Shown: piece by piece, positions 30,360 to 34,874 of the stretch
Layout of the letters: the number at the start of each line of letters is the position of its first letter
Numbering within the stretch: position 1 is the first letter of the stretch
From: Bacteroidota bacterium
GTDB lineage: Bacteria > Bacteroidota > Bacteroidia > Palsa-948
Length of the DNA stretch: 54,414 nt
Assembly (NCBI GenBank): GCA_003164895.1
Contig: PLUL01000015.1
Location: forward strand, 91,147-145,560
Direction of reading: 5' to 3'
Program-made: the position numbers and the translations under genes
Notes under the pieces: model-generated
Told to the model about the DNA's origin: nothing
Databases searched by the model: none
What the model saw: the letters and a program-made list of their open reading frames with translations, nothing else

Positions 30360-31427
30360 ATGAGCAAACAAGATAAAATCAAATCATTTGATCCGAACAC
30401 TGTTGCTTCGGGCGATGGAAATATTTTCGGACTTCCGTTCACTACTGAGGAAGCAGAACTGGTTTTACTTCCTGTTCCTTGGGACGTAACGGTTTCTTAC
30501 AAGGATGGAACCTCAAAAGGTCCGCAGGCGATCTTTGATGCTTCATCGCAGGTCGATCTGTTCGATCCGCAAGTGAAGGATTCATGGAAGATTGGAGTGG
30601 CGATGGAAAAGATTTCGCCAGTGATCGCAAAAAAGAATGCTGCGTTGAGAAAGAAAGCATCTCAATACATTGGCAAACTTGAAAAAGGAATTTCGGAAGA
30701 TGCTGCGTCAATGAAAAAGATCAGAAACGAAGTGAATGCAGGATGCGAAGAATTGAGAGCCTGGGTGATGACATCGGCAAAAAAGCATTTGGATAAAAAT
30801 AAGCTGGTTGCACTTGTTGGTGGCGATCACAGCACGCCACTGGGTTTCATGGAAGCGCTGGCTGAAAAATATTCCGGTGGATTTGGAATTCTGCAATTTG
30901 ATGCGCACTGCGATCTTAGAAAAGCATACGAAGGTTTTGAATATTCTCACGCGTCCATCATGTATAATGCGCTGAAGATTCCTCAAGTAAAAAAACTGGT
31001 TCAAGTTGGTATACGCGACTGGTGCCAAGCAGAAAATGATCTCATCAATGCATCGAAAGGAAGAGTGAAAACATTTTTTGATTACCAGTTGAAAGAGCAA
31101 TCGTACCGCAGCCGCAGTTGGGTTTCTATTTGTTCTGACATTATTCAGGAATTACCCAAACACGTTTACATCAGTTTTGATATTGACGGGCTCGATCCAA
31201 AACTTTGTCCGAACACTGGCACTCCGGTTCCCGGCGGATTGGAATTCGGAGAAGCAGTTTTCCTGATGGAGATGATCGCACGTTCAGGAAAAAAGATCAT
31301 TGGTTTTGATCTGAATGAAGTAGCACCCGGCAAAGACGAATGGAACGGCAATGTTGGTGCACGATTGCTTTACAAGATGTGCAATATTGCAGCAGTGTCG
31401 AACGGGCTGGCTAAGTTCAATCAATGA
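30360..31427 (+). CDS. Agmatinase/arginase family (ureohydrolase) protein
   Basis: Dinuclear Mn-type ureohydrolase, 355 aa. Metal-ligand motifs are complete: GGDHSTPLG, FDAHCDLR and SFDIDGLDP. The N-terminal SFDPNTVASGDGNIFGLPFT and the PVPWDVTVSYKDGTSKGPQ region match Bacteroidota agmatinase-family proteins. Substrate is undecided between agmatine, arginine and formimidoylglutamate. Because formiminoglutamate is handled by the FtcD enzyme at 19394, a HutG role seems less needed. Its stop overlaps the trmH-like ATG. Confidence 0.88.
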   Translation: MSKQDKIKSFDPNTVASGDGNIFGLPFTTEEAELVLLPVPWDVTVSYKDGTSKGPQAIFDASSQVDLFDPQVKDSWKIGVAMEKISPVIAKKNAALRKKASQYIGKLEKGISEDAASMKKIRNEVNAGCEELRAWVMTSAKKHLDKNKLVALVGGDHSTPLGFMEALAEKYSGGFGILQFDAHCDLRKAYEGFEYSHASIMYNALKIPQVKKLVQVGIRDWCQAENDLINASKGRVKTFFDYQLKEQSYRSRSWVSICSDIIQELPKHVYISFDIDGLDPKLCPNTGTPVPGGLEFGEAVFLMEMIARSGKKIIGFDLNEVAPGKDEWNGNVGARLLYKMCNIAAVSNGLAKFNQ

Positions 31428-32110
31428 GTAAGGAATTAGTAAATTACCTCTCGGGATTTGTTACTGCAAATCGTTTAAAACGTTTTGACGAAGTGCTGCA
31501 GCACCGCACACGCCACTTAACCGTTGTGCTCGAAGATATTTACCAGCCGCACAATGCCGCAGCCGTTTTGCGTTCCTGCGATTGTTTCGGAATTCAGGAT
31601 GTGCATATTGTGGAGAACCAAAATAAATTTGCTCCGAATCCGGATGTAGAGCTTGGCTCTTTGAAGTGGCTCACCATTCATAAATATAATTCGAAAGACG
31701 ACCCCTCGACTTCGCTCGGGGTGACAGAACAATGTATTGCTGAGTTAAAAAAGAACGAATATAAAATTGTTGTTACTTCTCCGCACAAGAACGACTGCTC
31801 GATTGAAGAACTCGACATTACAAAAAAAACAGCTCTCTTCTTCGGAACAGAAATGCGCGGAGCAACGCCTGTAGCATTTGAACAAGCGGATGCATTTGTA
31901 AAAATTCCGATGGTGGGGTTTACCGAGAGTTTGAATATTTCTGTTTCGGCTGCGGTTTCACTTTTTACGCTTTCATCCCGCCTGAAAAAATCCAATATTG
32001 ACTGGAAATTAAGCGAAGAAGAAGAAGTTGAAATCCGTTTAGCTTGGCTGAGAAATACTATTCAGAAACCGGAATTGCTGGAGCAGGAGTTTTTGGAAAA
32101 AAAGAAATAA
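31424..32110 (+). CDS. TrmH-family tRNA/rRNA (ribose-2'-O) methyltransferase, with a repeat insertion
   Basis: SPOUT-fold methyltransferase related to TrmH, which methylates G18 of tRNA. 228 aa. Motif 1 is the DIYQPHNAAAVLRSCDCFG segment; motifs 2 and 3 are ALFFGTEMRGATP and the GFTESLNISVSAAVSLF knot motif. Between about residues 92 and 102 it contains DDPSTSLGVTE, which is encoded by a REP-like palindrome (31697-31727) and is not expected in the family. The frame is kept, so the protein could still be active, because the site lies in the loop before the sheet ahead of ...KIVVTSPH. The start overlaps the upstream gene (ATGA). Confidence 0.92.
   Translation: MSKELVNYLSGFVTANRLKRFDEVLQHRTRHLTVVLEDIYQPHNAAAVLRSCDCFGIQDVHIVENQNKFAPNPDVELGSLKWLTIHKYNSKDDPSTSLGVTEQCIAELKKNEYKIVVTSPHKNDCSIEELDITKKTALFFGTEMRGATPVAFEQADAFVKIPMVGFTESLNISVSAAVSLFTLSSRLKKSNIDWKLSEEEEVEIRLAWLRNTIQKPELLEQEFLEKKK
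31697..31727. repeat. REP-like palindromic element inserted in a coding sequence
   Basis: GACGACCCCTCGACTTCG continues into CTCGGGGTGACA. ACCC(C)...GGGT arms surround a CGA...TCG stem. The complementary strand reads in all-frame translation as CHPERSRGVV, the peptide signature of the interspersed palindromes commonly mis-annotated in Bacteroidota and other genomes. It is in frame within the TrmH-like gene. Confidence 0.7.
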
Positions 32111-32139: not shown

Positions 32140-33576
32140 TCAATGCCATCCTATTTCAGAACATAAAAGAAGTTTGGTGTAGAATAAATTTCCATTGAAT
32201 CTTGAATCGCTATTTTTTAATTGCATATAATTTTCGCTGAATCTTAAGATGAATCTTCTGTGAAAGCATTTAACTTTCCAGTCAAAATCAAAACCAATAT
32301 TTAAAGGTGATGCGTTAGTTAGGGAAAGATGGGATTTTCCAAGTTCAAAAAAACTTGCTCCGATACCTACGAATGGAACAAGACGAAACGTTTTGTTATT
32401 TAAACAAGCGTAACCAAAATTCAGATTCATATTTTGTAAATCAGCAGTCGAATCTTGTGTGTAATGGGTGTTATTATAAACAAAAGGAGCATTTATGTGA
32501 GTATTGCTTGGTGCTATTGCCTCTATCTTCAAAAAGAAATTTCTATATCCAAAATCAATTCCTAATGCCAAAGCAAAAGAATTTTGGAAATATTTTGATG
32601 CATTCCCATTCATATTGTTATAGCTTGCGCCTAATCCTCCATCAAAAGTAAATTTATTTGGTTTTTGGTTTACGCTGTCAGCAGTCACAGTTCCTAATAT
32701 TTCCCAACAAATTTTTTTAAGTAATAGCGGGTCAATAATTGCATTTTTTATCTGTAATTTTTTATCATAATTTTCAACTGCAATACAAATCTTTTGCAAT
32801 TGAGGGCATTTAAGAACATTGGTAAATAATTCTCTTTCTGCAACGTAACCTATTTTGTTAGTATGTAGTGGATAGGGTAATCTCCAGTTAATATATTCAT
32901 TAGAAGATTCTATCGGAGACTCTATATTTGTAAAATTTATTTTTTTCAAACTTTTTATTTCTAAAATTTCTTTCGGCAATTTTGTAAAAGAATTATTTAT
33001 TAAATCAAGTACTAATAAGCTATTTAGAGTTTCAATTTCTGTAGGTAAAAACCTAATATTATTCAATCTAAGTTCAAGAACTTCAAGAGATTTTAGATTC
33101 GATATTTCTTTAGGTAGAGTATCAATGTTACAGAAAGAAAGACTTAATCCTTTTAAGTGATTTAAAGAGCAGAGTTCAACTGGAAAATTTCCAAAATCAA
33201 CATATAAAAATTGGAGATATTTTAAATTAGTTAGTTGATTTAATTTATTTGTATCAATCCGAATTTTTACGAGTACTGGAAGCGGGTCGCTTTTCTTTTT
33301 TCGCAATCTTAGTTTTCCAACAACAAAAACATGCTCAACGCTTTTGAACTTCAATAAATCATTATTGGGAAAAATGGAATCAGTATATAATTCGATTTTG
33401 ATACATTTTACTTTCTCTACATTTTTTTTCTTTAATGCTTTTTTTAATGTTAAGAATTTAGAGGAGGAGGAGCGCTTATACATTTCCTTTTCCGAATAAC
33501 TTCTTTGACTAAAGGTACGTGATAATGAAAGAAAAAGGAAGGCAAATAATAGAAGGAAAAAATTTCGACTATTCAT
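32140..33576 (-). CDS. Leucine-rich-repeat protein with predicted outer-membrane barrel domain
   Basis: 478 aa. Signal peptide (NFFLLLFAFLFLSLSRTFSQ), a basic segment with KRSSSSKFLTLKKALKKKN, then about five LRRs between residues 110 and 220 (LKGLSLSFCNIDTLPKEI, LEVLELRLNNIRFLPTEI, LLVLDLINNSFTKLPKEI and similar). The last 170 residues alternate aromatic and polar strands (YSNFFLKIEAIAPS-like, GFDFDWKVKCFHRRFILRF), which looks like a small beta barrel anchoring the LRRs at the surface. No family name fits the whole. It overlaps the SDR stop by 4 nt (ATGA), so it is coupled to it, which is an odd pairing. Confidence 0.8.
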   Translation of the reverse strand: MNSRNFFLLLFAFLFLSLSRTFSQRSYSEKEMYKRSSSSKFLTLKKALKKKNVEKVKCIKIELYTDSIFPNNDLLKFKSVEHVFVVGKLRLRKKKSDPLPVLVKIRIDTNKLNQLTNLKYLQFLYVDFGNFPVELCSLNHLKGLSLSFCNIDTLPKEISNLKSLEVLELRLNNIRFLPTEIETLNSLLVLDLINNSFTKLPKEILEIKSLKKINFTNIESPIESSNEYINWRLPYPLHTNKIGYVAERELFTNVLKCPQLQKICIAVENYDKKLQIKNAIIDPLLLKKICWEILGTVTADSVNQKPNKFTFDGGLGASYNNMNGNASKYFQNSFALALGIDFGYRNFFLKIEAIAPSNTHINAPFVYNNTHYTQDSTADLQNMNLNFGYACLNNKTFRLVPFVGIGASFFELGKSHLSLTNASPLNIGFDFDWKVKCFHRRFILRFSENYMQLKNSDSRFNGNLFYTKLLLCSEIGWH

Positions 33577-34307
33577 TTATTCATGGTATTAAATACTTCC
33601 TCTCTTTTCATGCGTAAACCTTTTGCTTGCCCCACGCAGGTTTCATACACATCGCCTGTAATTCCTGCCATGGCTTCTTTTAAAAATTCAGCTACCGAAA
33701 TTCCCCCGTGCGATTGGGTTTTGTCGTCTCTGCGGTCGTGTCCTAAATTAGTATCTACAGCAGGCGGAGCAATTTCAAAAACTTTTATGGAAGTGCTTTT
33801 AAGTTTGTGGCGCAGCGACATGGTCAGCGAATGCATGGCGGCTTTGGTTGCGCAATAAATTCCCATAAAAGCCAACGGAGCAAATGCCAATCCTGACGTG
33901 ATATTGATAATGGCAGATTCACTTTTTGTTTTCAAAAGCGGAATGAACAACGAACTTAAATGCAGCGGTGCAACAATGTTTGTGCCAATTTCCGCATTTA
34001 CTCTTTTCATATCCAGCGGCTGAGAAATATCTGTGCCCAACTGTACTCCGGCATTATTTATCAAAACATTTGTTTCGGGATGATTTGCTTTTATCCAGTT
34101 AAAAAGTTCTTCGCGTTCTTTTTCAACCGAGACATCGCATTTTCTAATAATCATTTCGGGATGCTCAGCTTTTACTTTGTTGAGCCGATCTTCCCATCGC
34201 GCGCAAACGATTATTTTATTTCCGAGACGCAAAAATTCTTCCGCAAATCCCAGTCCGATTCCCGAAGAACCTCCGGTAATTAAAATTGTATTTCCTGTTG
34301 TTTTCAT
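33573..34307 (-). CDS. SDR family NAD(P)-dependent oxidoreductase
   Basis: Classical short-chain dehydrogenase of 244 aa. TGGSSGIG cofactor motif at residues about 10-17, NNAG in VLINNAGVQLG, catalytic Ser in ITSGLAFA and YxxxK in GIYCATKAAMHS. The C-terminal region (FNTMNK) is short. Sequence resembles the DltE-like SDRs common in Bacteroidota. Substrate unknown. It is the first gene of the pair with the LRR gene, from a TAnnTTTG promoter 14 nt upstream of the ATG. Confidence 0.9.
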   Translation of the reverse strand: MKTTGNTILITGGSSGIGLGFAEEFLRLGNKIIVCARWEDRLNKVKAEHPEMIIRKCDVSVEKEREELFNWIKANHPETNVLINNAGVQLGTDISQPLDMKRVNAEIGTNIVAPLHLSSLFIPLLKTKSESAIINITSGLAFAPLAFMGIYCATKAAMHSLTMSLRHKLKSTSIKVFEIAPPAVDTNLGHDRRDDKTQSHGGISVAEFLKEAMAGITGDVYETCVGQAKGLRMKREEVFNTMNK

Positions 34308-34329: not shown

Positions 34330-34439
34330 CGTTCGGTTTTCAATCTTTACTCCTGATAATTTTCATACTACTTTGTTCCACTTTTTCTATTACATTCGCA
34401 GTCCAAAACTTAAGAACTTAAACTTTAAAATTTTATATC

Positions 34440-34874
34440 ATGGGAAAAGGAGATATCCGCACACGCAGAGGAAAAATCTGGAGACGCACTTACGGTGTAA
34501 CCCGTCCTCGCAGATGGAAAACAACAACGCCAGCCATCGTTGCTAAACCACGAAAAGTAAAAGCGTTAAAAGACCTTCCGAAAGTCGTAGCAGAGGAACA
34601 AATAAAGAAAATTGTGGTTGAAGCTGTTCAGCCGAAAGTTGTTGAAACGAAAGCGCATATTGCAGAAGTGAATGCACCTGTTGCCGCCGAAGTGCATCAA
34701 TCTGTTGTTACCGAAACTGCTCCTGCTACTGAAACACACGCAGTTGAAACTGCTCATGCAGAAGTAACATCTGAAACAAAAAAACCTGCAGCGAAGAAAG
34801 CTCCGGCAACAAAAAAAGCTCCTACGGCTAAGAAACCTGCAGCAGCGAAAAAAGCTCCGGCAAAGAAAAAGTAA
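34440..34874 (+). CDS. Ribosomal protein bTHX fused to a histone-H1-like tail
   Basis: 144 aa. Residues 1-27 (MGKGDIRTRRGKIWRRTYGV... TRPRR) match 30S ribosomal protein bTHX, normally a peptide of about 25-50 residues that sits at the top of the 30S head. It is followed by a basic linker and a middle region rich in Val, Ala, Glu and Thr (residues about 45-105). The last 35 residues repeat PAAKKAPA / TKKAPTAKK / AKKAPAKKK, like the C-terminal domain of histone H1 or bacterial H1-like proteins. Codons in the tail repeat but are not identical. The start fits the bTHX N-terminus exactly. Convergent with TIGR02757, 1 nt apart. Confidence 0.85.
   Translation: MGKGDIRTRRGKIWRRTYGVTRPRRWKTTTPAIVAKPRKVKALKDLPKVVAEEQIKKIVVEAVQPKVVETKAHIAEVNAPVAAEVHQSVVTETAPATETHAVETAHAEVTSETKKPAAKKAPATKKAPTAKKPAAAKKAPAKKK

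Follow-up and report, generated by a model that had tools for sequence, protein, structure and literature searches.

A histone H1-like C-terminal extension on the small ribosomal protein bTHX in Bacteroidota

The bTHX gene and its locus

The window (the whole analyzed stretch of Bacteroidota DNA, 54,414 nucleotides long) carries at positions 34440-34874, on the + strand, a gene for the ribosomal protein bTHX (Thx, S31), the only copy in this genome. The gene is a single uninterrupted frame of 144 codons, with the ATG at 34440 and the TAA stop at 34872-34874. An earlier note on this DNA had described the frame as continuous, with no frameshift needed, and this was confirmed: the 144 amino acids are uninterrupted and all six bTHX-bearing genomes of the genus concur, so that a frameshift, a pseudogene or an assembly artefact could be ruled out. 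Each of the other two forward frames over this stretch is interrupted by 7 stops, and the probability of 117 further open codons at the base composition of the window is about 3e-4. An Rfam scan returned no match close to the gene. Upstream of bTHX lie the following features:

30360-31427: agmatinase-like gene, before the TrmH-like gene
31424-32110 (+): TrmH-like SpoU methyltransferase, the usual upstream neighbor of bTHX in relatives (from family and neighborhood comparison)
32140-34307 (-): LRR gene and SDR gene, between the TrmH-like gene and bTHX
34391-34398 (+): TACATTCG, lying about 41 nt ahead of the ATG, a candidate -7 promoter element of the Bacteroidota type, TAnnTTTG-like (other genus loci have comparable, similarly placed elements; a weak indication)

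Sequences like TAnnTTTG form the Bacteroidota -7 promoter consensus, and the element at TACATTCG suggests that bTHX may have its own promoter. The bTHX gene follows a SpoU-family methyltransferase gene on the same strand at 17 loci from 12 families (e.g., L026, L024, L013, and L046), usually with a gap of at most 150 nt (range 26-404 nt), and an agmatinase-like gene often precedes the methyltransferase gene. The best solved relatives of the methyltransferase are TrmH tRNA Gm18 methyltransferases; against the NCBIfam equivalogs, it scored under every curated cut-off. In the window, this order of agmatinase-like gene, TrmH-like gene, and bTHX is preserved and broken by the LRR and SDR genes on the opposite strand. 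Because short and long bTHX genes of 12 families share the neighborhood, the window gene is supported as their ortholog, and by its gene order it belongs to an old bTHX locus. The LRR and SDR genes are missing from that place in the four other genus loci that have the TrmH-bTHX pair, which suggests a local insertion or rearrangement. The literature places the bTHX gene away from the other ribosomal genes (PMC3353972).

A bTHX core followed by a four-part extension

The bTHX family likeness comprises the N-terminal 27 residues, which start with MGKGD, and the signature MGKGDxRTxRGK stands at the N-terminus with scores over both curated cut-offs: 35.7 bits against PF17070 Thx (cut-off 29.7) and 48.8 bits against TIGR04560 ribo_THX (cut-off 26). 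These residues also resemble the Thx chains of Thermus in the PDB (E 3e-7), so that the earlier identification of the first 27 residues as bTHX is well founded in Pfam, NCBIfam, and Thermus Thx alike. A sequence search of the PDB found no solved Bacteroidota bTHX. Whereas Thermus Thx is 27 amino acids long in its PDB record, the window protein adds 117 residues, for which Pfam and NCBIfam gave no convincing family and only a few weak hits (E >0.1) of the low-complexity kind. The parts of the protein, all on the + strand, are:

34440-34520 (+): bTHX core, residues 1-27
34521-34550 (+): variable spacer, residues 28-37
34551-34583 (+): conserved basic motif RKVKALKDLPK, residues 38-48, found in six of six genus proteins
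34584-34766 (+): Val/Ala/Glu/Thr-rich middle, residues 49-109, net charge -6, presumed from its composition to be a flexible tether
34767-34871 (+): basic AKKAPA-type tail, residues 110-144, net charge +12, supported by genus charge, pN/pS, and an 18-nt array

The extension thus runs from a short spacer through a basic motif (RKVKxLKDLPK) and an acidic-to-neutral Val/Glu/Thr middle to a 35-residue tail, with K, A, and P making up 50% of residues 28-144. The earlier description of a Val/Ala/Glu/Thr-rich middle and an H1-like AKKAPA tail agrees with this composition, and is refined by the basic motif between core and middle. Linker histone H1 is characterized by a basic tail rich in Lys, Ala, and Pro, as is the window protein, in which Pfam detected neither a globular H1 domain nor an Hc1 family match; the resemblance is a likeness of kind, not of descent.

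At the DNA level, the tail (34797-34871) is a degenerate 18-nt tandem array with 65% matches, and its synonymous Lys, Ala, and Pro codons are mixed; the tail is therefore not a plain DNA repeat, and the codon mixing argues against a recent repeat as its origin, the degenerate array notwithstanding.

Conservation and constraint within the genus

Six of the seven sampled genomes of the genus have a bTHX match (the seventh, 78% complete, has none), and in all six the protein is encoded in one frame of 140-173 residues, with 5 to 18 stops in the other two forward frames of each gene. The order of parts is likewise the same in all six: core, basic motif (consensus R-K-[VA]-K-x-L-K-[DE]-[LI]-P-K), V/E/P/T-rich middle (58-90 residues, net charge -9 to 0), and AKK-type tail, with a net charge of +12 to +15 over the last 35 residues. 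Homologues in which the extension forms a separate downstream gene, which the earlier note had named as evidence against its proposal, were not found in the genus; the shared frame ruled this arrangement out, and neither the window protein nor three of the other five genus proteins have an internal Met.

To gauge constraint, we compared pN/pS with 20 shuffled-codon sets that were realigned in the same way. Because these values are simple counts uncorrected for multiple hits, from six sequences with high pS (0.6-0.7), they show constraint and not its strength: pN/pS was 0.29 in the core, 0.75 in the spacer (residues 28-36), 0.32 in the motif region (residues 37-57; near the value of the core), 0.52 in the middle (shuffled mean 0.75, minimum 0.67), and 0.29 in the last 35 residues (shuffled mean 0.58, minimum 0.46). 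As far as sequence comparison can tell, the tail is maintained by selection.

Tailed bTHX proteins across the Bacteroidota

We then considered 109 bTHX proteins from 50 Bacteroidota families, with a median length of 44 residues. At least 60 amino acids were found in 43 of the 109 proteins, spread over 29 of the 50 families, and most others had 31-45 residues; the short forms sampled from families f49, f35, and f56 have 34-51. These counts are not frequencies for the phylum, because sampling was uneven, the first set mostly having a single genome for each family and the second drawing many from a few families. K/A/P-repeat tails occurred in 24 of the 50 families, where a family was counted if at least one protein had at least 60 amino acids, was K/A/P-rich past residue 27, and held at least three [AP]xKK-type units. 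C-terminal tails of 30-146 residues are common on Bacteroidota bTHX, the purest being that of the G018 protein (136 aa, about 100 of them PAAKK-type repeats), and the genus of the window sits at the long end of the length range. The extended bTHX proposed earlier is therefore real, but it is no peculiarity of this gene, since 29 families have such long proteins; the tailed bTHX is a habit of the lineage, ordinary within the phylum, and not a one-off oddity.

The bTHX family search matched in 69 of 395 phylum genomes, whereas a published survey reported Thx in all Bacteroidetes except one (PMC3353972); our search probably misses many copies, the model being so short. A whole-protein search of the genome contigs had one match, the bTHX core in a gammaproteobacterial MAG, and the tail is too variable for that search. 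In G347 (contig 1), two almost identical bTHX genes (L115 and L116) lie near opposite contig ends, at distances of about 31 kb and 1.4 kb, and the frames between them are shifted; one way to explain this is that the ends of a circular contig overlap in the assembly. A literature search that covered subscription journals thinly returned no description of a tailed bTHX, which is weak evidence of novelty. Automated annotation very likely already labels the tailed genes THX.

Similar tails on other proteins

A codon pattern for an AKKxxAKK run, applied to 20 genomes, recovered the bTHX tails together with TopA, bL21, DksA/TraR-type, and stand-alone K/A/P proteins (Pfam matches were checked for L133, L136, L141, and L144, and the remaining loci were named by sequence likeness). 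Topoisomerase I (TopA) C-termini end in KKPAAKK-type repeats in several Bacteroidota families (L130, L132, L136, L143, and L144), a bL21 carries a lysine-rich tail (L133), and in four genus mates a DksA/TraR-type zinc-finger protein has a long N-terminal part that is rich in lysine, with AKKK repeats (L138, L140, L141, and L152). Nucleic-acid-binding proteins of the phylum thus repeatedly bear the same kind of lysine-rich appendage. Other Bacteroidota have stand-alone proteins almost entirely of K, A, and P (L127, 64 aa, for which Pfam gave no match, and L146, 151 aa), and AT-hook-like words occur in the long bTHX tails of two other families (GRPKK in L006 and RGRPKK in L115).

Within the window's own genome, the AKKxxAKK pattern found bTHX and one open stretch of 18 residues that is not gene-like (L137). 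A profile of the genus tails found bTHX alone; it missed known bTHX tails in G006, G018, and G014, so its negatives carry no meaning. The same genome has an untailed bL21, a bS16 extended to about 174 aa, and, as a different gene from bTHX, an Hc1 homologue that lacks a K/A/P tail.

Comparison with known tailed proteins

The nearest working parallels are eukaryotic. Mosquito RPS6 is, like bTHX, a small-subunit protein with a Lys/Ala-rich H1-like C-terminal tail, which is retained on the ribosomal subunit, resembles H1 by convergence, and diverges fast (PMC548281); it differs in being an unrelated eukaryotic protein with a tail of about 170 aa, whose ribosomal retention is experimental, whereas the window protein is known from its sequence. 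Drosophila RpL22 shares an Ala/Lys/Pro-rich tail on a ribosomal protein, but its extension is N-terminal, on the large subunit, and its H1/H5-like domain binds DNA by experiment (PMC8872304). Among bacteria, AlgP and PhaF of Pseudomonas have long disordered KPAA-type tails (PMC9239181), similar in kind only; they are not ribosomal, act in granule positioning, and place the KPAA repeats after a helical N-terminal domain, where the window protein has bTHX. DNA binding in vitro has been shown for KPAA-repeat peptides and for the AlgP tail, and AlgP associates with polyphosphate granules, whose positioning requires its tail (PMC9239181). Bacterial S16, L21, and other ribosomal proteins carry low-complexity regions, lysine-rich in L21 and interpreted as nucleic-acid binding where lysine-rich; those of S16 are mostly Ala/Glu, unlike the bTHX tail, and bTHX is not mentioned in the part of that source available to us (PMC6821194).

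A polyanion-binding arm as the favored explanation

The explanation that we consider rather probable is that the gene encodes a genuine bTHX whose C-terminal extension is particular to the lineage, under selection, and probably disordered. The N-terminus would sit in the 30S head, and the tail would be an arm that binds polyanions non-specifically, rRNA being its most likely target. Counted in its favor were the family matches of the core, the architecture common to all six genus members, the constraint on motif and tail, and the constant charge, as well as the K/A/P tails in 24 of 50 families, the like tails on RNA- and DNA-binding proteins, the RNA methyltransferase neighborhood, and the nucleic-acid-binding interpretation of lysine-rich regions on bacterial ribosomal proteins (PMC6821194). 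Mechanistically, residues 1-27 would, by homology, insert into the 16S rRNA cavity of the 30S head, as Thermus Thx does, and a second contact near this anchor may come from the basic motif. The acidic-to-neutral middle of about 60 residues would, from its composition, form a flexible disordered tether with a contour length of about 220 Å for 61 residues and, by a scaling law for disordered chains, an rms reach of about 66 Å, ending in the last 35 residues as a high-charge, sequence-independent polyanion-binding hand. The net charge stays constant as sequence and spacing change, a pattern more in keeping with electrostatic binding than with a motif for specific recognition. Since a 30S-anchored tail would encounter rRNA first, the likeliest partner is rRNA, bound while the 30S assembles or afterwards; this would make bTHX bind faster and stay bound, and mRNA is a putative secondary partner. 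By analogy with mosquito RPS6, the tail probably remains on the ribosome. Against this reading, many Bacteroidota manage with a bTHX of 31-45 residues, so that the tail is dispensable for the core function.

We regard it as unlikely that the tail instead links the nucleoid with ribosomes, or with free bTHX, as a bacterial parallel of Drosophila RpL22. DNA binding by RpL22 (PMC8872304) and by KPAA-type tails (PMC9239181), the AT-hook-like words in the two distant bTHX tails, and the similar tails on TopA would fit such a role, but on the 30S the tail would meet rRNA and mRNA first, AT-hook-like words are absent from the window's genus, and bL21, with a like tail, binds RNA. Equally doubtful is a nearly neutral, repeat-expanding low-complexity appendage that is tolerated and has little function: tail length and sequence differ greatly among families, the tail is a degenerate tandem array, and short bTHX is common, but motif and tail are constrained relative to the shuffled control, charge is constant, and all six genus members keep the tail. 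The need for the AlgP tail in placing polyphosphate granules (PMC9239181) inspires a further, quite improbable idea, that the bTHX tail binds polyphosphate or another polyanion and would regulate ribosomes in starvation. It is just as improbable that the tail is cleaved off, or that translation ends early, to leave a standard bTHX of about 27 residues; for cleavage, which the earlier note had suggested, we found nothing in support beyond the analogy of ribosomal protein S27a, made as a fusion that is then processed (cited in PMC548281), and the single frame, the absence of internal Met from the window protein and three of its five genus counterparts, the lack of a recognized cleavage motif, and the retained RPS6 tail (PMC548281) argue against it.

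Implications for Bacteroidota ribosomes

Usually pictured as a peptide of about 26 residues, bTHX is in many Bacteroidota a product made up mostly of a basic, probably disordered arm, which ribosome models would not show. The tailed bTHX adds a bacterial case to the repeated, convergent emergence of H1-like tails on ribosomal proteins, and, if present on the 30S, the tail would bring strong positive charge to the head. We give little credence to the boldest form of the idea, in which the smallest 30S protein would, in several Bacteroidota lineages, have turned into a long tethered arm attaching ribosomes to the chromosome or to mRNA, as the bacterial counterpart of insect H1-tailed ribosomal proteins. 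Bacteroidota ribosomes do not use Shine-Dalgarno pairing (PMC9976891), and, if such a tethered arm is real, a phylum without this pairing could benefit from an arm on the 30S head that keeps hold of mRNA non-specifically.
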